Of a DNA stretch of 33,168 nt, positions 3,132 through 13,782 are shown in pieces. The stretch spans positions 1 to 33,168 of the forward strand of contig PKCS01000082.1 in the NCBI GenBank assembly GCA_002862305.1. The letters run 5' to 3'. Each line of letters begins with the position of its first letter. Positions within the stretch are counted from its first letter, which is position 1. Source of the stretch: Phycisphaerae bacterium. Lineage in GTDB: Bacteria > Planctomycetota > Phycisphaerae > Phycisphaerales > SM1A02. The notes beneath the pieces were generated by a model. That model was not told the DNA's origin. It saw only the letters and a program-made list of their open reading frames with translations, and did not search any database. The position numbers were made by a program, and so were the translations under genes.

Positions 3132-3163
3132 GAGCGTTCCAGGCGGGGGTGGACGGTGAATGC

Positions 3164-3193
3164 TTGCCCCGCGAGGCGGCGAGCGACTATCCT
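3164..3193 (+). promoter_or_regulatory. Candidate promoter of the small-protein/deoC operon
   Basis: TTGCCC (3164-3169) and TATCCT (3188-3193) are separated by 18 bp in the 71-bp gap after the MBL gene. The -10 ends 9 nt before the ATG at 3203, so the transcript would have almost no leader. Each hexamer matches the sigma-70 consensus at four of six bases. Confidence 0.4.
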
Positions 3194-3202
3194 CGACGGA
3201 CC

Positions 3203-3418
3203 ATGAAGACCTTCACCAAGCCAGCCCGATCCGCGATGACGTCCGCATTCCTCGCCGCCTGCACGGTGGTTCCGGCTGCCGCCCAGAGCAGCGGCCCCAT
3301 GACCCCGAGCGCCTCGGGCACCAGCCCGCTGCTGGGCTACATCATCGCCGCGGTGCTGGGGGTGCTGCTGGTGGTGATCACCATGATCCCCTCCAAGCGG
3401 CACACCGAGGACCTCTGA
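3203..3418 (+). CDS. Small envelope protein with signal sequence and one C-terminal membrane helix
   Basis: A 71-aa protein I do not recognise. The first 28 residues look like a signal peptide (basic MKTFTKPARSAMTSA, hydrophobic stretch, then a PAAAQ cleavage-like site). A Ser/Pro/Thr-rich linker leads to a strong membrane helix (LLGYIIAAVLGVLLVVITMI), and a short basic/acidic tail SKRHTEDL ends the protein, presumably in the cytoplasm. It begins an operon with two other small envelope proteins and deoC, with gaps of about 20 bp. The ATG was chosen because the reading frame upstream has no good start and the promoter-like element lies just before it. Function unknown; a helper for an envelope complex is possible. 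Confidence 0.7.
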   Translation: MKTFTKPARSAMTSAFLAACTVVPAAAQSSGPMTPSASGTSPLLGYIIAAVLGVLLVVITMIPSKRHTEDL

Positions 3419-3438
3419 CCACGAGGACCGGACCGGAC

Positions 3439-3741
3439 ATGAAGAACGCCCACATCATCTGGCTGGTGCTGCTGAACCTCGGACTGGTGGCCGTCCTGTG
3501 GTTCGTGACCTTCCGGCCGGGTGCGGAAGCGGTCGCCGACGCCTCGGCATCCAGGCGCGGCAAGTACATGGCGGTCTCCGGGCACATCTCGGGCATGAAG
3601 GCGCCGGTGGTCTGGATCATCGACCAGTCGAGCCAGCAGATGGTCGCGATCCAGTTCGACTACCAGGCCAAGCAGTTCCGGAACTACGGGTACCGGAACC
3701 TCACCCAGGACGCCCAGGCGATCCGGCAGAATCGACCATGA
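3439..3741 (+). CDS. Membrane-anchored small periplasmic protein, putative paralogue of the next gene
   Basis: A 100-aa protein with an N-terminal uncleaved anchor or signal (IIWLVLLNLGLVAVLWFVTF) and a compact extracytoplasmic domain. That domain reads KYMAVSGHISG, then VVWIIDQSSQQMVAIQFDY, and ends in a polar tail. The hydrophobic-strand-D-x-x-S-x-x-M-x-strand pattern recurs in the next gene product (LLYVLDNYSEMMFVYEVP), so the two probably share a fold and arose by duplication. The pattern resembles one beta-propeller-like strand pair, but is too short for a whole propeller. It lies 20 bp after the preceding gene and 19 bp before the next. No known domain is recognised. Confidence 0.7.
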   Translation: MKNAHIIWLVLLNLGLVAVLWFVTFRPGAEAVADASASRRGKYMAVSGHISGMKAPVVWIIDQSSQQMVAIQFDYQAKQFRNYGYRNLTQDAQAIRQNRP

Positions 3742-3760: not shown

Positions 3761-4102
3761 ATGACCCGTCACTCCAGATCCCGGAACCAACTCACGCGGG
3801 GGATCCTGATGGCGACCGCGTTCCTGCTGGCCGCCCTGGTGGTGGTCCAGGCGGGTCGAGCACCCCGGCCGTCGGCGTTCGCGGGGGATGCGGTGGTGGG
3901 TTCGGAGGGGTTCACGATGCTGACCGCCTCCAGCGGGTTCGGGAAGGACGTCCGCCCCTACGAGCTGCTGTACGTCCTGGACAACTACTCGGAGATGATG
4001 TTCGTCTACGAGGTGCCCCAGTCCACGAATCGCAGCGTCTCCCTGCTGGGCGGGATGGACCTCCCCTACCTGTTCAGGATGGCGCGGGGCGCCGGCAACT
4101 GA
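3761..4102 (+). CDS. Membrane-anchored small periplasmic protein, putative paralogue of the preceding gene
   Basis: A 113-aa protein with a basic N terminus (RHSRSRNQLTRG), one hydrophobic segment (ILMATAFLLAALVVVQAG), and an exported domain containing GFTMLTASSGFG, then LLYVLDNYSEMMFVYEVP and a Gly-rich end (LLGGMDLPYLFRMARGAGN). The central segment aligns by eye with VVWIIDQSSQQMVAIQFDY of the neighbour. The first in-frame ATG is used; it is 19 bp after the upstream stop. deoC follows after 18 bp, so deoC may be expressed from this operon although the products have no obvious shared function. Function unknown. Confidence 0.7.
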   Translation: MTRHSRSRNQLTRGILMATAFLLAALVVVQAGRAPRPSAFAGDAVVGSEGFTMLTASSGFGKDVRPYELLYVLDNYSEMMFVYEVPQSTNRSVSLLGGMDLPYLFRMARGAGN

Positions 4103-4120: not shown

Positions 4121-5071
4121 GTGCCTGGAACCCCACCGAAATACGTCCCGGTCGAGCGCCGGATGACCGAGTCGAGAGCGGCCTCGTTCCAGACCAGGTC
4201 CATCAAGAACGAATCGAAGCTCGCGGGCTATCGCCTGGCGGTCGCGATGACCGACCTCACGACCCTGGAGGGGAAGGACACCCCGGGCAAGGTGCGAAGC
4301 CTCTGCCGGAAGGCGCTGTCACCGGACGTGGGAACCCCCCTTCCGGAGGACGCGCCGAGACTCCCGCCGGTGGCGGCGGTGTGCGTCTACCCGGAGCTGG
4401 TCGCGGTGGCGCGGGACTGCCTCGGTGACTCGGGGGTCAGGATCGCGAGCGTGGCGACCGCGTTCCCCAGCGGGCAGTACCCACTCTCCCTCCGCCTTGA
4501 GGACGTCGAGCTCGCGGTCGGATCGGGCGCGGACGAGATCGACATGGTGATCTCGCGCGGCGCCTTCCTCGCAGGTCGTTACGACCAGGTGGCCGGCGAG
4601 ATCCGGGAGATCAAGGCCGCCTGCGGCGATGCGCATCTCAAGATCATCCTCGAGACCGGGGAGCTCGAGACCCTGGACAACATCCGGCGCGCCAGCGAAC
4701 TCGCGATCGAGACGGTGCTGGACGCACCCGGAGGCGACGGCCTCGCGGACGGGGAACTCTTCATCAAGACCTCCACCGGGAAGGTCAGTCCCGCGGCCAC
4801 CATGCCGGTGGTGCTGGTGATGCTGGAGGCGATCCGGGAGGCGTGGTTCCGCCACGGGGTCCGGATCGGCATGAAGCCGGCGGGCGGGATTCGTTCCGCC
4901 AAGCAGGCGCTGCACTACCTGGTGATGATCAAGGAGACCCTGGACGAGCACTGGCTCAGCCCGGAACTCTTCCGCTTCGGGGCCTCCAGCCTGCTCGACG
5001 ACCTCGTCCGGCAGTACGCGAGGCAGCTGAACGGTCGCTACATGGCGCCCTACGACGTCAGCAGCGCCTGA
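4121..5071 (+). CDS. deoC: Deoxyribose-phosphate aldolase
   Basis: Class I aldolase that splits 2-deoxy-D-ribose 5-phosphate into acetaldehyde and glyceraldehyde 3-phosphate, in deoxynucleoside catabolism. Characteristic blocks are present: AMTDLTTLEGKDTPGKV near the N terminus, EIDMVISRGAFLAGRY, LKIILETGEL, the Schiff-base lysine K216 in FIKTSTGK, and the helper lysine K252 in GMKPAGGIR. At 316 aa it is longer than the roughly 260-aa short bacterial type and close to the long type found in eukaryotes. The GTG at 4121 is used; an in-frame ATG at 4163 is an alternative because the first 14 residues are not conserved. Convergent with the ROK kinase; the acetaldehyde product connects it to the aldehyde dehydrogenase genes at 6743-9174. 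Confidence 0.93.
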   Translation: MPGTPPKYVPVERRMTESRAASFQTRSIKNESKLAGYRLAVAMTDLTTLEGKDTPGKVRSLCRKALSPDVGTPLPEDAPRLPPVAAVCVYPELVAVARDCLGDSGVRIASVATAFPSGQYPLSLRLEDVELAVGSGADEIDMVISRGAFLAGRYDQVAGEIREIKAACGDAHLKIILETGELETLDNIRRASELAIETVLDAPGGDGLADGELFIKTSTGKVSPAATMPVVLVMLEAIREAWFRHGVRIGMKPAGGIRSAKQALHYLVMIKETLDEHWLSPELFRFGASSLLDDLVRQYARQLNGRYMAPYDVSSA

Positions 5072-5083
5072 ACCACGATCCCA

Positions 5084-5770
5084 TCAACCCGGCAGGCTGT
5101 CCTTCCACGCGTCCTCCCACATGCGGAACCCACCGAGGAAGGCGTTCTCGTTCTCGCCCCGGCGACAGTAGTCCGGCAGCTTGAAGTCCTCCTTGAACTT
5201 CTTGACGTTGCCCCCGCCGAGCACGATGTAGTCGGGAAGCAGTCCCCGGTAGAGCACCTCGCAGACCTCGAGGACCACCTCGCGCCAGCTCTTCTTGCCG
5301 TGCTTCTCGAGCGCCGCCTCGCCGACCGCATCCTCGAAGGTGCTGTTCCGGCGGAAGGGCATGTGTGCGATCTCGGTGGGCTGGACCACGTACTTGTTGA
5401 TCAGGCAGGTGCCGAGACCGGTCCCGAGGCCCATGAAGAGCATCGAACCCCCGTCGTAGGAACCGATCGCCTGCATGGCGGCGTCGTTGGTGACCTTGGT
5501 GGGGACCCCGAAGGCGTCCGTGAAGTCGAATCCCTTCCACCCGTCGCCGAGGTTGACCGGATCGATCATCGCGGTGTTGTCCCGGATCGGGGCCGGGACC
5601 CCCATCGAGACCCGGTCGATGTCCCAGTCCTTGATGATCGCCTTGACACCCTCGACCATCTGGGAGGCGGTCAGGTCGGGGCCGCTCTCGAAGCGGCGTT
5701 TCTCGGGATCGCTCTTGATGCGGACCTTGACGTGGGATCCGCCGATGTCGATAGCCAGGACCTCGGCCAT
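5084..5770 (-). CDS. ppgK: ROK-family sugar kinase, polyphosphate glucokinase-like
   Basis: Cytoplasmic hexokinase-fold protein of 228 aa, expected to phosphorylate glucose using polyphosphate and/or ATP. Near the N terminus is the phosphate-binding loop LAIDIGGSHVKVRI, then VSMGVPAPI, LGDGWKGFDF, the catalytic Asp in VTNDAAMQAIGSY, the second phosphate loop GLGTGLGTCLI, TEIAHMPF and the adenosine-site segment IVLGGGNVKKFKEDF. The ROK zinc motif CxCGxxGC is absent, as in PpgK enzymes. The ATG at 5770 is preceded by GAGAGGAG and is preferred over an upstream in-frame start at 5854, which would add a non-conserved tail overlapping the divergent gene. Phosphoryl donor and sugar are inferred. Confidence 0.8.
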   Translation of the reverse strand: MAEVLAIDIGGSHVKVRIKSDPEKRRFESGPDLTASQMVEGVKAIIKDWDIDRVSMGVPAPIRDNTAMIDPVNLGDGWKGFDFTDAFGVPTKVTNDAAMQAIGSYDGGSMLFMGLGTGLGTCLINKYVVQPTEIAHMPFRRNSTFEDAVGEAALEKHGKKSWREVVLEVCEVLYRGLLPDYIVLGGGNVKKFKEDFKLPDYCRRGENENAFLGGFRMWEDAWKDSLPG

Positions 5771-5832
5771 GTCAGGACTCCTCTCTCGGCAGGACGTCCC
5801 TCCATGGGAGCGTGCCGTACGGGGTCCGATGA

Positions 5833-5838
5833 TAATAT
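5833..5838 (+). promoter_or_regulatory. Candidate -10 (TAATAT) of the 5846 lipoprotein gene
   Basis: TAATAT ends 7 nt before the ATG at 5846, so a normal transcription start would fall at or very near the start codon. It overlaps GATAAT (5831-5836) and TATTAT on the other strand, the latter possibly serving the divergent kinase gene. No convincing -35 is visible. Confidence 0.35.
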
Positions 5839-5845
5839 CTCGGGG

Positions 5846-6715
5846 ATGAAACAACCGATGCTCGATCGATCAACCTTGCGACGCCGTCAGGACCGTTCAG
5901 GACTCGCCGCCCCCGCGACCCTCCTGGTGGTGCTCCAGGTGCTCTTGATGCTCCCGGTCGCACTCCAGTCGGGGTGCGCGAAACCGGAATCAAGGGGATC
6001 GGGAACCGTCGTCACCACCGAGGACGGGGTCCTCATCGACCAGCTCGTGATCGAGGACGACAAGGTGGTGGTCAACGAACGGGGCATCCGACCGGACGAC
6101 CAGTCCGGGGCTGACGGCTCCCGGAAGTACATCATCGAACGACGGCCGGTCGCCGAGGGGGAGGCGATCCGACTCCGGATCGAGAACCGGAGGGGCGGCC
6201 TCGCGATCGAGGTCGACCAATCCTCGTCGGAGGTGGTGGTGGAATCGGTGGTCTCGGTCCCCGGGGCCAGGAGCCGGGCGAACGACGAACTGCTCTCGGG
6301 GGTCGGGTTGGAGCTGGGAGGCGGTCCGAAGGGGTGGACCGAGATCCGGACCACGTGGCCCGGGGGACGGCCGGCGGAGGCGATCGCTCTGATCAGGGTG
6401 GTCGCACCCAGCCTGGCTTCGCTGGACCTGCGGACCGGCGAGGGTCCCATCATCGTCTCCCCCTGCTCCGGCGACGTGGAGCTCCGCACCGGCAGGGGAT
6501 CGATCTCGGTCGTACTCCCCGCGGGCTGGAACGGCCGCGTGCAGGCGGAGGCGCTCGGTGGCCGGGTGGAGACCGTGACCACGCCGGAGGTGAGACTCGA
6601 CTGGAGCTCCTTCCAGGAGAACCGGGCGGACTTCAGGCTCGGCGAGTCGGGGGAGGAAGGCGCCAACGCCCGGATCAAGACCGGGGACGGGTCGATCAGG
6701 ATCACCGTCGGCTGA
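5846..6715 (+). CDS. Putative exported lipoprotein with DUF4097-like beta-repeat domain
   Basis: A 289-aa protein. A long hydrophobic signal (residues about 22-40) ends at LQSGC, a lipobox-like site with an atypical Gln at -3, so lipidation is likely but not certain. The mature part begins with a Ser/Gly/Asp-rich stretch. The C-terminal half is a set of short beta strands with repeated motifs such as LDLRTGEGPIIVSPCSGDVELRTGRGSISV and a final IKTGDGSIRITVG, the repeated turn-strand style of DUF4097/adhesin-like domains. Function unknown; such domains occur in envelope-stress and regulatory contexts. It is divergent from the sugar kinase and precedes the ALDH genes by 27 bp. The ATG follows an AT-rich -10-like element closely. 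Confidence 0.75.
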   Translation: MKQPMLDRSTLRRRQDRSGLAAPATLLVVLQVLLMLPVALQSGCAKPESRGSGTVVTTEDGVLIDQLVIEDDKVVVNERGIRPDDQSGADGSRKYIIERRPVAEGEAIRLRIENRRGGLAIEVDQSSSEVVVESVVSVPGARSRANDELLSGVGLELGGGPKGWTEIRTTWPGGRPAEAIALIRVVAPSLASLDLRTGEGPIIVSPCSGDVELRTGRGSISVVLPAGWNGRVQAEALGGRVETVTTPEVRLDWSSFQENRADFRLGESGEEGANARIKTGDGSIRITVG

Positions 6716-6736
6716 ATCGGGACGGGTCATGAAGCT

Positions 6737-6744
6737 GCTAGGAT
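6737..6744 (+). promoter_or_regulatory. GCTAGGAT, candidate -10 for the aldehyde dehydrogenase pair
   Basis: The octamer is identical to the one before trpD. It overlaps the ATG at 6743, so if it is the -10 the real start would be the GTG at 6755 (10 nt after the element) or at 6767. This makes the ALDH start uncertain. Confidence 0.3.
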
Positions 6745-8260
6745 GGTCGCGAAGGTGGTTGAACCAGTGGACAGTTCCCCGAGCACCAGCACGACCGATC
6801 ACGACGCCGTGACGAGCGGCGCCAACGGCTCCGGCTGGGAGTACGCCCCCGCACCGGAGACCACCGAGGTCCGCATCGAACCCCGGTACGGGCTGTTCGT
6901 CGGCGGCCGGTTCGTGGCCTCGAAGGGCCGGCGGCGGATGAGCACCCTGAACCCCGCCAACGAGCGGGAGCTCGCCTCGGTGGTCCAGTCCAACGCGGCG
7001 GACGTGGACGCGGCGGTGGCGGCCGCCCGCAAGGCATTCCGGAAGTGGTCGCGCACGCGACCCATCGAACGAGGCAAGTACCTCTTCAGGATCGCGAGGA
7101 GGATCCAGGAACGAGCCCGGGAACTGGCGGTGCTCGAGACCATGGACGGCGGGAAGCCGATCCGGGAGAGCCGGGACGTCGACGTCCCGCTGGTGGCCCA
7201 GCACTTCTTCCACCACGCGGGGTGGTGCGACAAGCTCCGGTACGCGATCCCCGGGAACGACGACCCGAGGCCCCTCGGGGTCTGCGCCCAGGTGATTCCC
7301 TGGAACTTCCCCCTGCTGATGGCGGCCTGGAAGATCGCACCGGCGCTGGCCTGCGGGAACACGGTGGTCATCAAGCCGGCGGAATCGACATCGCTCACCG
7401 CGCTTCGGCTCGCCGAGATCTTCCAGGAGTGCGAGCTCCCGGACGGCGTGGTCAACGTGATCACCGGAGCGGGGGAGACCGGTCGCCTGCTGGTTGAGCA
7501 CAAGGGCGTGGACAAGGTGGCCTTCACCGGATCGACCGAGGTGGGCAAGATGATCGCACGGTCCTGTGCCGGGACCTCGAAGCGGGTGACCCTGGAGCTG
7601 GGCGGGAAGAGCCCCAACATCGTGTTCGCGGACGCCGCGATCGACCAGGCGATCGAGGGCGTGGTCTCGGCGATCTGGTTCAACCAGGGACACGTCTGCT
7701 GCGCGGGGTCTCGACTCTTCCTCGAGGAATCCATCCACGATGAGTTCGTGAGACGACTCGAGCACCGGATGCGCAAGCTCCGGGTCGGCGATCCGCTGGA
7801 CAAGAACACCGACGTGGGCGCCATCAACTCGCGCGATCAGCTCGAGAAGATCAACCAGTACCTCGAGCACGGGATCCAGGAGGGCGCCACCATGGTCCAG
7901 TGCTGCGACCGGCCCCTTCCGGAATCCGGTTTCTGGTGCCGACCGACGTTCTTCACCGGGGTGCAGCCCACCACCCGGATCGCCCGCGAGGAGATCTTCG
8001 GACCCGTGCTCTCCGTCATGACCTTCCGAACCCCGGAGGAGGCGGTCCAGCGCGCGAACGACACCCCCTACGGACTCAGCGCGGGGATCTGGACGGACAA
8101 GGGCGCCAAGGTGTTCGAGCTGTCCTCGAGGTTGAAGGCGGGGGTGGTGTGGTGCAACACCTTCAACAAGTTCGATGCCGCCAGTCCGTTCGGTGGCTAC
8201 AAGGAGTCGGGTTGGGGCCGCGAGGGTGGTCGCCACGGCCTCGCCGCGTACCTCGCCTGA
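6743..8260 (+). CDS. Aldehyde dehydrogenase, catalytic half of an ALDH16-like pair
   Basis: NAD(P)-dependent oxidation of an aldehyde to the acid; acetaldehyde from DeoC is the likely but unproven substrate. The protein is 505 aa from this ATG, full ALDH length plus an unconserved N-terminal tail of about 45 residues. All catalytic residues are present: N188 in IPWNFPLLM, E285 in VTLELGGKSPN and C319 in FNQGHVCCAGSR (His replaces the usual Gln two residues before the cysteine). The NAD-binding block VAFTGSTEVGK and the C-terminal EEIFGPVLSV and PFGGYKESGWGRE are intact. The exact start is uncertain; in-frame GTGs at 6755 and 6767 are alternatives. The truncated ALDH follows after 14 bp. Confidence 0.92.
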   Translation: MVAKVVEPVDSSPSTSTTDHDAVTSGANGSGWEYAPAPETTEVRIEPRYGLFVGGRFVASKGRRRMSTLNPANERELASVVQSNAADVDAAVAAARKAFRKWSRTRPIERGKYLFRIARRIQERARELAVLETMDGGKPIRESRDVDVPLVAQHFFHHAGWCDKLRYAIPGNDDPRPLGVCAQVIPWNFPLLMAAWKIAPALACGNTVVIKPAESTSLTALRLAEIFQECELPDGVVNVITGAGETGRLLVEHKGVDKVAFTGSTEVGKMIARSCAGTSKRVTLELGGKSPNIVFADAAIDQAIEGVVSAIWFNQGHVCCAGSRLFLEESIHDEFVRRLEHRMRKLRVGDPLDKNTDVGAINSRDQLEKINQYLEHGIQEGATMVQCCDRPLPESGFWCRPTFFTGVQPTTRIAREEIFGPVLSVMTFRTPEEAVQRANDTPYGLSAGIWTDKGAKVFELSSRLKAGVVWCNTFNKFDAASPFGGYKESGWGREGGRHGLAAYLA

Positions 8261-8274
8261 ACAGGATCCGGACC

Positions 8275-9174
8275 ATGAACGACTCGAAGAAGACCAGCAG
8301 GGAACCCGGACGGATCGCGGTGGCGAAGACCTGGAAGCTGTTCATCGGGGGTGCGTTCCCCCGAAGCGAATCGGGTCGATCGACCCGGGTCCTGGGGCCC
8401 GGCGGCGACTTCGAGACCAACGTCTGCCTCGCGTCCCGCAAGGACCTCAGGAACGCGGTCGAGGCCGCGGAGTCCGCCCGCGCCGGCTGGCAGAACCGGA
8501 CCGGCTACAACCGTGGACAGATCCTGCATCGAATCGCGGAGATGGCCGAATGCCGGCGCGGGGAGATCGTGGATGCGATCACCGCCACCGGATCGGCCAC
8601 CCGGCGAGTCGCCGCGGAGGAGGCGGACCGGTCGATCGATCGACTGGTGTCCCATGCAGGCTGGACGGACAAGGTCGAGCAGGTCCTGGGGTGCCGGAAC
8701 TCGGTGGCCGGTCCGTACCACAACATGAGCATCCCGGAACCGATCGGGGTGGTCGGGGTCGTCGCGCCGGACCAGCCCTCGCTGCTGGGGCTGGTTTCGA
8801 TGATCGGGAGCGCGATCGCCACCGGAAACGTGGTGGTGGCGGTGGTCTCCGAATCGAACCCGCTCCCGGGTCTGCTGCTGGGTGAACTGTGCGCGACCTC
8901 CGACGTCCCGGCTGGCGTGGTCAACCTGCTCAGTGGTTCGAGGAAGGAACTCCTGCCGCACCTCGCGACGCATCGTGCCCTGGGGGCGGTGGTGGCCGCG
9001 GGACTGAGCAGGACCCAGCGACGGGCCCTGCAGGAGGGTGGCGTGGATTCGCTCACGCGGGTGCACCCCGCCATGGACGATCATCCCTTCGACGGGACCG
9101 ACTTCTGGACCACGCCGCGGGCACTGATGCCCTTCGTCGAGACCAAGACCATCTGGCACCCGATCGGGGGCTGA
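8275..9174 (+). CDS. Truncated aldehyde dehydrogenase homologue lacking the catalytic domain (ALDH16 C-terminal-like)
   Basis: A 299-aa protein similar to the first 60% of an ALDH: KLFIGGAFPRSESGR, the helical segment with VEAAESARAGWQ, and the Rossmann part (PIGVVGVVAPDQPSLLGL, GSAIATGNVVVAVVSE, PAGVVNLLSG). The Asn expected in the P-W-N-x-P block is replaced (APDQPS), there is no ELGGK glutamate, and the whole catalytic cysteine domain is absent. The reading frame ends cleanly with no sign of a frameshift. ALDH16 proteins consist of a full ALDH domain followed by such a non-catalytic ALDH domain; 505 plus 299 residues matches that total (about 800). It therefore looks like a split ALDH16, the second chain likely aiding assembly. 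Convergent with the GH35 gene. Confidence 0.8.
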   Translation: MNDSKKTSREPGRIAVAKTWKLFIGGAFPRSESGRSTRVLGPGGDFETNVCLASRKDLRNAVEAAESARAGWQNRTGYNRGQILHRIAEMAECRRGEIVDAITATGSATRRVAAEEADRSIDRLVSHAGWTDKVEQVLGCRNSVAGPYHNMSIPEPIGVVGVVAPDQPSLLGLVSMIGSAIATGNVVVAVVSESNPLPGLLLGELCATSDVPAGVVNLLSGSRKELLPHLATHRALGAVVAAGLSRTQRRALQEGGVDSLTRVHPAMDDHPFDGTDFWTTPRALMPFVETKTIWHPIGG

Positions 9175-9181
9175 ACGAACG

Positions 9182-11827
9182 TCACTCCGAGGCGACGCTC
9201 AGGGTGATGCCGCGGGGATCGCACCCACCGACGTCGAAGACCTCGATCCGCGTCGAATCCACCGTGAGATCCGGGGGAAGCGACACGGCGGGCGAGGTGC
9301 CGGCGTCGTAGCGACCCACCATGGTCCCGTCGACCAGGACCAGTCCTCGAGACATCGACGAGAGGTCCAGGGATGCGGCACGGCCGGGCCCGTTGGCGAG
9401 CTGCACCCGGAACCAGGTCGGGATCCCGGTGGCATCCCCGGCAGGGCCGAGCTCCCGGAATGCATCGACCAGGTCGGATGGTGCGGACACGGCGGTGAAG
9501 GCGATCGACCCTGGGTCGGTGCCCAGCTCGCCGAGGACCTCCTCCATCCGGAGCGAGGCGGCGAGGTCGGGGATCGAGTCCTCGAAGGAGGGATCGGGGC
9601 GGAAGACCAGGACGTTCTTTCCCTGCTTCATGCCCTCGGTCACCCCGGGTACGAGCCTGAACCCGTCCTCGATCGAGGTCTCGGTCCGGCGGAGGTACTG
9701 GTCGTTGAGGAACCACGATCCGGAGGCCCGGGTGCCGGGGCTGACCACGAGGGCCTTCTTCCTCCGGTGCGTGAACGTCCACTCCAGCGCGATCCCGGAC
9801 GACTCCGAGTCGGACTCGAGTTCGGGAACGAACCCCCTCCGGGAGGAGATCTCCTCCAGCGGTTGGTTTCGAAGGATCTTCACGGACAGGTCCTTGAAGG
9901 GCGTCACCTGCCCGATCGGGCGGTGGATCCCGGCGGGCTCGACCTGCCGGTTGCCGGAATCCCGACCGCCGTGGAGTTCGACCAGCACCGCGAGCTGGCG
10001 GGCGGAGCCGGGAGCGGGCAGCCGGACGTCGAAGCCGTCGGGGGTGCCGAGGCCACCGGTTCCGAGGTGGCGGGCACCAAGGTAGAGGTCGAACCGGTAG
10101 GGACCCGCGGGGAACCGGAGCTGGCGACCGTTGGATCCGGATTCGGGAAGGTCGAGGAGGTACCAGCCGTATCCGGCATCGATGCCGCAGGAATCCATGG
10201 AGCGCGGGGTCCGGGTCCGGGCGTACCGAGGATTCGTGCCATCCAGGCAGGATTCGAGGGGACACGCCGACCAGTCGAGCTTCCTGCGGGAACGCGTCAG
10301 CCGGAAGGGTGGGCGTGACTCGATCTCCGAGAGACGGCCGTCGAGGTCCACCCGGCTGGCGGAGGCGAAGGCGGGGTCCCGGACCGGGACGCCGTCCGCG
10401 GCGACCCCGAGCACGCCGAGCAGGAGCCCGTCGGGATCCACCGCCACCGACCGTGCCTGCAGGGGATTGCAGACCACCAGGTGGTACTCCTCGAACTCGA
10501 CGATGGTGGGATCGGGATCATCGGGATCGGGGACGGGGCACTCCAGCTCGCGGCCGTTGATCCCGATGCGAATCGCCGACCCCGCCCGGCCGAAGAGGAC
10601 GATGAGCCGCCGGCCGACGAAATCCACGATCGATCCGCTGGTGTAGTCAAGGCGCCCGCTGCCCGAGAGGTCGACCCCGACGAGGGGCCAGGTGCCCAGC
10701 GGATCGGCGCCGAAGGAGAGCTTGCGACCGTCGGAGAGGACCACCTCGTGGTCGGAGCCTTGATCCTGGTCACCGAGGAGGAACAAGGCGGTGGAGGCGC
10801 TTCCGCGGCGCGCCACGAGGGCGGAGGCCACCGCGTCGGGATTGGCCACCGGGGCATCGAGCGCGGGATCGAAGCTCGAGAGCAGTCCGCTGAAGGACCC
10901 GGCGAACCGGATCAGGGGGATGGAGTTCCGGCTCTCGGGGACGATCGAGCCGTCATGGCCGAGGAACGCGCCGGGGATGACGTGGAGGGACTGGCCCGCG
11001 GAAGCCGTGGTCGCCCGGTGCACTCCGCCCACCGCGTCATCCACGATCGGCATGCCGCCGGCGGCGATGACGGACTTGAGGGCGCGAGCCACCTGGTCCG
11101 GATGCTCGGACCCTCCCTTGAGGAGGACGACGCCGGGGGCATCGGGCTGGACCTGGAGCAACTGCCGGGTGTTGGAGAAGAGATCGCGGCTGTCGACGTG
11201 CTCGGACCAGATGTCGATCGCGCCCTCGACGTCCTGCCAGAGGTCGTTGGCGGTGAAGAGGGGGACGTCGAGTCCGTGTTCGTTGACCAGGCGCTTCAGC
11301 TCGTCGAAGTAGATCGAGCCCGACTCCTCGTTGCCGCACCGCCATTCGTGCTCGATCTGGAGGCCGAGCAGGGGACCCTCGCGCTCGTCGGTGCTCTGGA
11401 ATCGAGCGAGCTCGCTGAAGAGGTGCCGCCACCAGTCCGAGAGCGCCGAGATGAAGTCGGGATCGGCCTCCCGGTGGAAGCCCGCCTCGGATTCCACTCC
11501 CAGCCAGCCCGGCAGCCCGCCGGCGGGGAAGGGACGTCCCACGTTGGGGCCCGCCCTGAGGATCACCTTCAGGCCGGATTCGGCACAAAGCTCGAGGTAC
11601 CGCGCGAGATCCAGGCTGCCCTTGAAGCTGAACTGGCCCCGGCGGGCCTCGTGGAAGGACCAGGGCGCGCTGGTGAGGATGGTGTTGAACCCGGATCCAC
11701 GGAGGTTGTCCAGGCAGGCCGCCCAGCTGCTCCGATCGAGCAGGGTGTGCTCGCACCTCGCTCCGATAAGCGTGATCCGCCTCGAGCGGATCAGAAAACC
11801 CCGACGGTCGAACGATACGATGGGCAC
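9182..11827 (-). CDS. Divergent glycoside hydrolase family 35-like protein, probably catalytically altered
   Basis: An 881-aa protein with the GH35 (beta-galactosidase) TIM-barrel signature: GFNTILTSAPWSFHEARRGQFSF, GLKVILRAGPNVGR, GGLPGWL and LGLQIEHEW, followed by long beta-rich C-terminal domains. The proton donor appears kept as the second Glu of EHE (residue about 161), but the preceding Asn typical of clan GH-A is His. The nucleophile region (about residues 233-240, reading VVLLKGGSEHPDQ) has no Glu where family members have EFY/EYW, and the GGTNFG block reads DDAVGGVHRATT. Hydrolase activity is thus doubtful. No signal peptide is evident. Start: GTG at 11827 with GAGGAG five bases upstream, preferred over an ATG at 11935 that overlaps the divergent gene. 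Confidence 0.8.
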   Translation of the reverse strand: MPIVSFDRRGFLIRSRRITLIGARCEHTLLDRSSWAACLDNLRGSGFNTILTSAPWSFHEARRGQFSFKGSLDLARYLELCAESGLKVILRAGPNVGRPFPAGGLPGWLGVESEAGFHREADPDFISALSDWWRHLFSELARFQSTDEREGPLLGLQIEHEWRCGNEESGSIYFDELKRLVNEHGLDVPLFTANDLWQDVEGAIDIWSEHVDSRDLFSNTRQLLQVQPDAPGVVLLKGGSEHPDQVARALKSVIAAGGMPIVDDAVGGVHRATTASAGQSLHVIPGAFLGHDGSIVPESRNSIPLIRFAGSFSGLLSSFDPALDAPVANPDAVASALVARRGSASTALFLLGDQDQGSDHEVVLSDGRKLSFGADPLGTWPLVGVDLSGSGRLDYTSGSIVDFVGRRLIVLFGRAGSAIRIGINGRELECPVPDPDDPDPTIVEFEEYHLVVCNPLQARSVAVDPDGLLLGVLGVAADGVPVRDPAFASASRVDLDGRLSEIESRPPFRLTRSRRKLDWSACPLESCLDGTNPRYARTRTPRSMDSCGIDAGYGWYLLDLPESGSNGRQLRFPAGPYRFDLYLGARHLGTGGLGTPDGFDVRLPAPGSARQLAVLVELHGGRDSGNRQVEPAGIHRPIGQVTPFKDLSVKILRNQPLEEISSRRGFVPELESDSESSGIALEWTFTHRRKKALVVSPGTRASGSWFLNDQYLRRTETSIEDGFRLVPGVTEGMKQGKNVLVFRPDPSFEDSIPDLAASLRMEEVLGELGTDPGSIAFTAVSAPSDLVDAFRELGPAGDATGIPTWFRVQLANGPGRAASLDLSSMSRGLVLVDGTMVGRYDAGTSPAVSLPPDLTVDSTRIEVFDVGGCDPRGITLSVASE

Positions 11828-11832
11828 CTTGA

Positions 11833-11838
11833 CTCCTC
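11833..11838 (-). promoter_or_regulatory. Shine-Dalgarno GAGGAG that fixes the GH35 start
   Basis: GAGGAG on the minus strand is separated by TCAAG from a GTG at 11827, an ideal spacing. It supports the short form and removes 36 unconserved residues that would otherwise be predicted. Confidence 0.65.
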
Positions 11839-11844
11839 TATAAT
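11839..11844 (+). promoter_or_regulatory. Perfect TATAAT hexamer upstream of the efflux gene pair
   Basis: The exact sigma-70 -10 consensus on the plus strand, rare in this GC-rich window, lies 90 bp before the ATG at 11935 and directly abuts the GH35 ribosome binding site on the other strand. No good -35 is seen at 16-18 bp. A role as the -10 of the efflux operon is plausible. Confidence 0.4.
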
Positions 11845-11934
11845 TGCGTACGGGGATGATAGGCAGCTGGATACCGGGACGCGTGACCAATCGAGAACTC
11901 CGGTCGATGACGGACGTCAACTGCACCAGAACCA

Positions 11935-13782
11935 ATGATTAACCGACCCTTCCAAGACACAAAAAAGATCCGGCCGGGACTCCGATCCCTGGCGACGGTG
12001 ACGGTGTGCGTGGTGGTGGCGGGCTGCCAGAGCGATGCCGAGTGGGTCGACCAGCGCCTGGATCGGGTGCTTGACGCCAGTTCCGACGACATCGGGGGGG
12101 ACAGCCGGGTGCCCGACACCGATGGCTGGATGGCCGGGGCGGGGAACGCGTTCCCTCCGGACCGCCTGGTCGACAACCATCCCCCCACCGACAATCCGCC
12201 GGCGGAGGAACTCAGGTTCAAGGGACAGAGCTTCACCGAGGCGGACGCCGACCAGATCATCGAGCGGATGACCACGATGGGGGAACCCGATCCGGACGCG
12301 CTGGAGCTCTCGCTCGAGGGCGCGATCAGGTACGCCACCGTCAATGCGATCGACTACATCAATGCCGAGCAGAACTACATGCTCGCGGGGCTCTCGCTCC
12401 TGATCGAGGAGCACCGGTGGGAACCGAACTTCTTCAACAACCTCACGGTGGACTCCCAGATCGGGAGCTTCCTCGGGCTCGAGGGACGCTTCGACAGCGC
12501 GTTGACCGTGGTCAACGACTTCGGGGTCTCGCAGCGGCTTCCCTACGGCGGGACGGTGTCCGCCAGCCTGATCGCGGGGACCACCAACCTCCTGGACAAC
12601 TTCTTCTTCGAGGGCGGCTTCTCGAACAACGTGGACGTGGTGCTTTCCGCGGACATCCCGCTGCTCCGCGGAGCGGGCACCACCGCCCGCGAGCCCTTGA
12701 TCCAGGCGCGACGGAACCTGATCTACGCCGCTCGGGCGTTCGAGACCTTCCGGAGGGGGTACTACCTCTCCCTGGTCACCGACTACCTCGACCTCGTGGT
12801 CCAGCAGCAGTCGATCGAGAACGGACGTCGCAGCGTGGCGCTCTTCCAGCAGGTCGAGGAACGGACGACCTCCCTCGTCGAGGTCGGCCGGCTCAAGCCG
12901 TTCGAGGCCGACCAGGCGAAGCAGGACACCCTCTTCGAGATCGACCGCCTCAGCGGGCTCGAGGAGAGCTACCGGCTCGCGGTCGACCGGTTCAAGCTCC
13001 TGATCGGCATGCCCACCAAGCAGTCGGTGTCGATCACCCCGACGATGCTCGATCTCGACGCCCCGAGCATCACCCCGGACGAGGCGGTTCGGATCGCCCT
13101 CCGGCTCCGACTCGAGATCCAGACCAACCGGGATCGCATCGACGACCTGCGGAGGCAGGTCGACCTCGCCAAGAACGGGATGCTCGCGGAGCTCGACTTC
13201 AGCAGCTCGATCCTCTTCCCGCTCGCGGATCCCGGGCGGACCCTGGGATTCGACCTCAGCCCCGACGAGGTGTCCTTCGGTCTCGGGGTGCAGTACTCCG
13301 CGGCCCTGGACCGGGTGATCGAGAAGTACCGGGTCCGGCAGGCGCAGATCAACCTCGAGCAGGGAATTCGTTCGTTCCAGAACGCCCGCGACAAGATCGC
13401 CATCGAGGTCCGCAGCCGGGTCCGGGCGATCGAGCGATCCCAGTTCTCGTTCCTGCTCCAGGAGCGGAACGTCGACATCGCGAGGAACCGGCAGGCGTCG
13501 ATCGAGGCGGCCCCGGACCGGGCATCGACCCGGGATCGAACCGAAGCGGTCAACGCCCTGCGCCGTGCGGAGGACCAGCGGGACCGAGCGGCCCGGGACC
13601 TGCAGGTGGCGATCCTCCAGTACCTCACGGCCAGCGGTCGTTTGAGGGTGGACACCGAAGGCAACCTCAAGCCGATACCAGGCATGAAGAACGAAGCGGG
13701 GCAGTCCCTCGTGGACGGCGAACCGGAAAAGGTGGATGGTGCCCCGCGAGAGGGGTCCGTGGCGGGAAATGCCACATCCTGA
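11935..13782 (+). CDS. TolC-family outer-membrane efflux lipoprotein
   Basis: Outer-membrane channel component of a tripartite exporter, 615 aa. A signal with lipobox VVAGC (Cys31) marks a lipoprotein, as in NodT/OprM-type channels. Helical coiled-coil segments with many Glu/Arg/Gln flank beta-strand segments such as DSQIGSFLGLEGRFDSALTV and VSASLIAGTTNLLDNFFF, in the two-repeat order of the family. A Pro/Asp-rich region of about 60 residues follows the lipid site. The HlyD-like adaptor is 48 bp downstream. The ATG is preceded by no strong ribosome binding site. No inner-membrane transporter gene is adjacent, so the partner pump must be elsewhere. Substrate unknown. Confidence 0.85.
   Translation: MINRPFQDTKKIRPGLRSLATVTVCVVVAGCQSDAEWVDQRLDRVLDASSDDIGGDSRVPDTDGWMAGAGNAFPPDRLVDNHPPTDNPPAEELRFKGQSFTEADADQIIERMTTMGEPDPDALELSLEGAIRYATVNAIDYINAEQNYMLAGLSLLIEEHRWEPNFFNNLTVDSQIGSFLGLEGRFDSALTVVNDFGVSQRLPYGGTVSASLIAGTTNLLDNFFFEGGFSNNVDVVLSADIPLLRGAGTTAREPLIQARRNLIYAARAFETFRRGYYLSLVTDYLDLVVQQQSIENGRRSVALFQQVEERTTSLVEVGRLKPFEADQAKQDTLFEIDRLSGLEESYRLAVDRFKLLIGMPTKQSVSITPTMLDLDAPSITPDEAVRIALRLRLEIQTNRDRIDDLRRQVDLAKNGMLAELDFSSSILFPLADPGRTLGFDLSPDEVSFGLGVQYSAALDRVIEKYRVRQAQINLEQGIRSFQNARDKIAIEVRSRVRAIERSQFSFLLQERNVDIARNRQASIEAAPDRASTRDRTEAVNALRRAEDQRDRAARDLQVAILQYLTASGRLRVDTEGNLKPIPGMKNEAGQSLVDGEPEKVDGAPREGSVAGNATS

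Follow-up and report, generated by a model that had tools for sequence, protein, structure and literature searches.

It is still being asked what the extra C-terminal domain of ALDH16 does. In the window (the whole stretch of DNA analysed, 33,168 nucleotides of contig PKCS01000082.1 from a Phycisphaerae bacterium), two adjacent genes raise it anew: the first encodes a complete aldehyde dehydrogenase (ALDH), and the second an ALDH-like chain that lacks the catalytic domain. Are these the two domains of an ALDH16 made as separate proteins and, if so, what would such a pair do? The features that bear on the answer are as follows.

3160–3741 and 3761–4102, forward strand: two open reading frames (ORFs) before deoC, neither with a match in the Pfam scan
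4121–5071, forward strand: deoC, deoxyribose-phosphate aldolase, predicted source of acetaldehyde (TIGR00126, 136.8 bits; cut-off 117.3)
5084–5854, reverse strand: ROK-family gene (Pfam) between deoC and the pair
5846–6715: ORF between deoC and the pair, with no match in the Pfam scan
6743–8260, forward strand: gene 1, catalytic ALDH chain (ALDH16-N-like), 505 residues from ATG; the start may be GTG 6767
7226–7276, forward strand: shortened oligomerisation hairpin of the catalytic chain, 17 residues, versus 23–30 in 21 ordinary ALDHs
7304–7306, forward strand: codon of Asn188, the catalytic asparagine
7595–7597, forward strand: codon of Glu285, the general base
7697–7699, forward strand: codon of Cys319, the catalytic thiol
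8261–8274, forward strand: intergenic gap of 14 bp, with a Shine-Dalgarno-like AGGA (8263–8266) 8 nt before the ATG of gene 2
8275–9174, forward strand: gene 2, non-catalytic partner chain (ALDH16-C-like), 299 residues
8692–8763, forward strand: full-length oligomerisation hairpin of the partner (residues 140–163; strands 140–142, 149–156 and 159–163 in the structure model)
9136–9159, forward strand: terminal strand of the partner in the model (residues 288–295, within VETKTIWHP), which the catalytic chain does not have
9182–11935, reverse strand: ORF of 917 residues that runs toward the pair and encodes a glycosyl hydrolase family 35 domain

The two genes lie head to tail in separate frames, with a stop codon between them. 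The first-pass annotation had described a full ALDH next to one without a catalytic domain, as ORFs, Pfam and PDB matches confirm, and the coordinates agree with its 14-bp spacing and combined length of 804 residues (505 + 299). Translation of gene 1 probably begins at GTG 6767 rather than at ATG 6743, judging from a Shine-Dalgarno-like AGGTGG (6753–6758) whose 8-nt spacing favours the GTG and would give a chain of 497 residues. ALDH16 proteins are single chains of ∼770–800 residues; the window has two ORFs instead, and the pair is therefore filed here as a variant and not as a canonical ALDH16.

Gene 1 matches the Pfam Aldedh profile with 549 bits. Among PDB sequences, the N-domain of the Loktanella sp. 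enzyme LsALDH16 matches it best (6mvr; 485 bits, with the next family at 433), and this domain accounts for 485 of the 529 bits scored against the whole of LsALDH16. The encoded chain is thus a full ALDH that is closest to ALDH16-N, both by bit score and in the N-domain tree (below). Asn188, Glu285 and Cys319, already recognized in the first reading of the sequence, are present and invariant across 58 aligned sequences (alignment A4, the window counted among them), and ordinary ALDHs of the ALDH1/2 type (for example, those at loci L030, L034 and L035) share these catalytic residues. One two-gene ALDH chain elsewhere (L024, genome G026) keeps the cysteine, but has neither the aligned asparagine nor the glutamate, and sits on a long tree branch (0.74).

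The match of gene 2 to the same Pfam profile is confined to positions 21–232 of 461. Its top PDB sequence match is to residues 499–766 of LsALDH16 (6mvu), with 143 bits for the best stretch. The N-domain of LsALDH16 scores 45 bits, and none of the other listed PDB chains more than 83. Gene 2 thus encodes a truncated ALDH, without a catalytic domain, that is closest to ALDH16-C. Across the group of gene 2 relatives the cofactor-site lysine is lost, the commonest rows carry another residue in place of the asparagine, and none of the 107 rows has a residue in the cysteine column. The AlphaFold2 model of gene 2 (pLDDT 93.2) finds 6mvs, 6mvr and 6mvu as its three best Foldseek matches. In VIA-align, model residues 15–299 superpose on residues 497–766 of 6mvu with a Z-score of 37.7, which is tied with many ordinary ALDHs, so that fold alone is not decisive and the identity of gene 2 is decided by sequence and trees. 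For gene 1, the fold ranking places ALDH1A2 slightly above 6mvu. Fold search was consequently dropped as a discriminator for ALDH16.

The gene 2 model spans ordinary ALDHs from their residue 16 to the last strand. Because this closing strand is still there, the catalytic domain has been lost from within the chain and not cut off its end. The first-pass annotation was right that the catalytic residues are lost, and its remark that the protein “ends cleanly” understates the case. At their C-termini, partner chains carry a KTxW(H/V)P-type motif, in most cases KTIWHP as in the window; the corresponding motif of LsALDH16 is KTIWVP. The gene 2 alignment contains 36 invariant columns across 70 sequences. 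Compared with L039, the nearest named relative, the window gives dN 0.23 and dS 1.39 for gene 2, and 0.08 and 1.21 for gene 1. On these substitution rates, gene 2 is under purifying selection. Neither chain reaches the cut-off of any listed NCBIfam model, so automated naming would likely call both plain aldehyde dehydrogenases.

Phylogeny places both chains with ALDH16. In a combined tree (53 rows, 241 columns), all 21 C-domains, including gene 2, group together with support of 100/100, and the N-domains group with 84/91; the tree proposed earlier for the 299-residue protein thus sets it with the ALDH16 C-domains and not with ordinary ALDHs. A reading of gene 2 as a copy of an ordinary ALDH in decay, as its lost catalytic residues and its position beside an ALDH gene could suggest, is refuted by this grouping and by the conservation of the pair across phyla, in addition to the low dN/dS, the invariant columns and the retained terminal strand, and we give it almost no credence. 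LsALDH16 (6mvr, 6mvs, 6mvt and 6mvu) comprises the same two domains by sequence and by tree, with the active-site residues in the first domain and a C-domain without the catalytic region, as in the window. It is, however, one chain of 767 residues, compared to the chains of 505 and 299 residues here, and the fused forms make up a separate clade. In a careful tree of 34 N-domains, two-gene chains (17), fused chains including LsALDH16 (11) and ordinary ALDHs (6) separate, each with support of 100/99, and a quick-mode tree of 64 rows agrees with this three-way grouping. The tree sets exclude locus L122, in which the catalytic part is broken in frame. The window copies L002, L009 and L131 were dropped, as were rows containing X, rows of short coverage and duplicates.

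The two-gene arrangement is widespread. Among the best 80 of 588 relatives, a sample biased toward near kin, the N and C parts lie in different ORFs in 77 loci and in the same ORF in none, and three loci have no N part. One of these three ends at a contig edge (L053), one belongs to a genome with N elsewhere (L077), and in the genome of the third (L056; G325) no ALDH with more than 40% identity to the window N was found. By NCBI ranks taken from the record titles, these 80 comprise 35 loci from Planctomycetota, 22 from Actinomycetota, 16 from Verrucomicrobiota, one from each of five further phyla and two unassigned, and some of the single-locus phyla look misbinned. All 22 of the named actinobacterial loci among them are two-gene. 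In total, 139 loci with C were collected (109 two-gene, 19 fused and 11 without N in the locus), a count that contains repeats of single genomes reached twice. Fused ALDH16 also occurs inside Planctomycetota (11 loci, L148–L158). We conclude that the pair is a real, widespread two-gene variant of ALDH16, present across several phyla. Titles and abstract openings among the matches listed contain no description of a two-gene ALDH16, which does not prove that none exists.

Several loci deserve separate mention. In one Streptomyces and one Planktophila locus (L085 and L103; positions 5992–5996 in each), the two ORFs of the pair share 5 bases, so that their translation may be coupled. Locus L122 (∼4500–6870), on a Phyllobacterium plasmid, carries a fused ALDH16 whose catalytic part is spread over several frames and is either a pseudogene or a sequencing error. 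The contigs of L054 (Hyphomonas sp. TMED17) and L057 (Phycisphaerae MED708) are identical in number, size and coordinates, so at least one of them is misbinned, and the taxon titles of L063 (Cyanobacteria) and L100 (Bifidobacterium breve) look wrong.

Could the window instead hold one fused ALDH16 gene that an error in sequencing or assembly has interrupted, or whose halves are rejoined by frameshifting? The nucleotide distance between the domains is near that of the LsALDH16 linker, and the second frame is open upstream, as such a reading would have it. However, at the level of the family the error is refuted by the absence of same-ORF cases among the 80 named loci, by partners that lie on different contigs in some genomes, and by the separate clades of two-gene and fused forms (above). 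The distance from the stop codon to the second domain varies from −1 to 2021 bases, with all three frame relations represented, in the 109 two-gene loci (genome repeats included), and these varied distances and frames speak against a frameshift fusion. The chance that the pair is a broken or frameshifted single gene is thus very small.

The two genes are also kept together, as judged by raw genome counts that ignore relatedness and for which the best 5–24 first-look candidates per genome were scored. In a family-level set of 101 genomes (cut-offs of E ≤ 1e-170 for N, 1e-50 for C and 1e-15 for deoC), C is found in 79, N in 76 and both in 75. A phylum-level set of 294 genomes gives 35 with C, 36 with N and 35 with both, at cuts chosen after the score gaps had been seen (at least 193 bits for C, with the next at 162; at least 719 bits for N, with the next at 619); under the looser limits of the search, the numbers are 131 and 47 genomes. 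For 197 Actinomycetes genomes, the counts are 106, 104 and 104, the 104 pairs being counted without separating fused from two-gene forms. C occurs without N in four family-level genomes: G334, G342 and G363, which are 90, 85 and 76% complete, and G024, which has a divergent N beside C despite being counted as C-only. The sole family-level genome with N and no C is G007, in which a 6187-base contig ends within C. In the odd phylum-level genome (G255), the contig begins 490 bases from N, on the side expected for C, and in the two C-only Actinomycetes the contig begins 285 and 685 bases from C, so that N would be cut off. Both genes are retained even where they are unlinked, either on separate contigs (G092 and G324) or ∼9 kb apart (G160). 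The C-domain as a gene of its own, which almost every genome with the catalytic gene has retained, is thus a natural dissection of ALDH16.

What the two chains have lost points to how they may work. Between two conserved columns, the oligomerisation hairpin is 23–30 residues long in ordinary ALDHs (21 of 21). It measures 27 residues in 106 of 107 partner chains, the exception being the broken fused gene L122 with 24, and 24 residues in all 20 fused C-domains. In the catalytic chains it is shortened to 16–17 residues in 86 of 94 two-gene sequences and to 14 in all 20 fused N-domains; the eight two-gene exceptions have 14 (two), 18 (one), 19 (two), 25 (two) and 36 (one) residues. No strand of at least three residues is predicted in the shortened hairpin of the gene 1 structure model. 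The catalytic chains also end early: 105 two-gene chains stop 1–12 residues (31 in one case) beyond the end of the N model, and none of the six tails longer than 8 residues has an ETKT-type strand. In contrast, the nearest ordinary ALDHs (L030, L034 and L035) continue to the terminal strand, for example TETKTVWVN; the “ordinary” group of this tail comparison has 24 rows, including two contig-cut ALDH16-N fragments (L048 and L076), and 22 are truly ordinary. Ordinary ALDHs thus unite a long hairpin, a terminal ETKT strand and the catalytic domain in one chain, whereas the window divides them. As far as sequences and models can tell, the losses are complementary, the catalytic chain being without the flap and the partner without the catalytic domain. 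Residues 473–492 of gene 1 are modeled with low confidence, yet their conservation (0.82) exceeds the average (0.67); this could hint that the segment needs the partner, a reading that a single monomer model supports too poorly to be given weight here.

The classic ALDH dimer has two symmetric contacts, in which the flap of subunit A rests on the catalytic domain of subunit B and the reverse. Each chain of the pair has lost one of the reciprocal halves of this contact. In LsALDH16, contacts within the chain are described as mimicking the intersubunit contacts of ALDHs (PMC8160307). By analogy, a two-chain arrangement may be proposed in which the N- and C-domain counterparts of ALDH16 act as separate chains. 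The catalytic chain would bind NAD and the aldehyde, its own flap being gone. The partner, which appears to keep the Rossmann-like core of an ALDH and a complete flap but none of the catalytic domain, would dock this flap on the catalytic chain and so supply half of the classic dimer contact, with the reverse contact lost on both sides. The likely assembly is (N·C)2, mimicking an ALDH tetramer as has been described for LsALDH16. The complementary losses and the co-inheritance suggest that the heteromer is probably obligate. We assign a probability of about 0.78 to the reading that the pair is such a heteromer, with the two counterparts of ALDH16 acting in trans to oxidize acetaldehyde made by DeoC; most likely, the two-gene variant works like ALDH16. 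As the C-domain gene carries the oligomerisation flap that is absent from the catalytic chain, the question of what the domain does is reduced to mixing two proteins.

An unlikely alternative is that the partner makes no ALDH-like dimer contact and has a separate role, for example in regulation or as a DeoC scaffold. C is sometimes far from the ALDH gene, and in the family-level set it goes with deoC (both in 76 of 101 genomes) nearly as tightly as with N (75 of 101). However, the partner retains its flap where the catalytic chain has lost its own, and the same pair of domains forms one chain in LsALDH16 and its kin, with the mimicry of intersubunit contacts noted above. We thus favor the heteromer.

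For the proposed heteromer, deoC provides a clue to the substrate. In the window, deoC lies 1.7 kb upstream of the pair, with the ROK-family gene on the opposite strand in between, and is therefore a neighbour that is not plainly part of one operon. The “deoC neighbourhood” of the first-pass annotation stands in this sense, and the linkage across loci is stronger than the window alone could show; a single operon in the window is not evident. Upstream and on the same strand, deoC is found in 59 of the 64 two-gene loci that have more than 5 kb of upstream sequence. In the family-level set, 72 genomes have deoC together with N and C, 18 have none of the three genes, seven have deoC without N and three have N without deoC; deoC was counted in 80 of these genomes, 78 of them above the curated cut-off. 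Fused forms show the same association. DeoC is upstream in nine of ten fetched Planctomycetota loci (the tenth has ∼2 kb of upstream sequence), and fused genes adjoin an annotated deoC in Shinella, Paracoccus, Pseudochrobactrum, Qingshengfaniella, Agrobacterium and Nitratireductor, and one recognized by homology in Sinorhizobium and Caballeronia. Additionally, two actinobacterial loci have a phosphoglucomutase/phosphomannomutase-type gene upstream of deoC, and genes for ribokinase, an RbsD/FucU-type protein or a sugar transporter occur at individual fused loci; among the few neighbouring genes scanned, no common function was found beyond deoC and sugar/nucleoside genes.

The products of DeoC are given as acetaldehyde and glyceraldehyde 3-phosphate (PMC6365646), and oxidation of this acetaldehyde by the pair is the natural reading. 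The likely job of the heteromer would be to convert acetaldehyde released by DeoC to acetate during deoxyribose or deoxynucleoside breakdown, which would give bacterial ALDH16 a likely pathway. That the heteromer acts mainly on another substrate is improbable, though it is the alternative that survives best. The three family-level genomes with the pair and no deoC are in its favor, as is the failure of either chain to reach a listed NCBIfam cut-off; the prevalence of upstream deoC at two-gene loci, and its recurrence at fused loci from Planctomycetota to Sinorhizobium and Caballeronia, speak against it. We thus retain acetaldehyde as the likely substrate of the proposed heteromer.

The trees also bear on how the two forms arose. 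The N and C clades are sisters in the combined tree (98/90), and the nearest outgroup in the N trees consists of ordinary ALDH1/2-type enzymes. Because the C clade has a long branch (2.22) and the support for N in this short tree is only 84/91, descent of both domains from one duplication is the simplest reading of the sequences and not proof. Two-gene and fused forms each make up one clade in the N tree, in the combined tree the order at the base of the C-domains is weakly settled, and in a quick C-domain tree (48 rows) one change between the two forms suffices. The name “split ALDH16”, given to the pair at first, is apt for a two-gene form of ALDH16, but the later fission that it implies is not borne out, as the trees show no such order. 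More tentatively, and with the odds somewhat against it, the two-gene form may be the older state: an ALDH would have duplicated, the copies would have lost opposite halves of the dimer contact, and single-chain ALDH16, the human pseudoenzyme included, would be a later fusion. In this scenario, the original job would have been the clearance of DeoC-made acetaldehyde, perhaps through an assembly of DeoC with the ALDH.

Human ALDH16A1 has a two-domain layout. It is a member of the family named ALDH16 and is described in PMC10650815 as a pseudoenzyme without the catalytic triad, in contrast to the window chain, which has the triad; the likeness between the two is one of description only. A cluster on the reverse strand of locus L180 (G024:C172) comprises deoC, an ALDH-like gene and a C-chain gene. 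Its ALDH-like chain has histidine in place of the catalytic asparagine and alanine in place of the cysteine and keeps the glutamate and, from these substitutions, is possibly a bacterial counterpart of the human pseudoenzyme.
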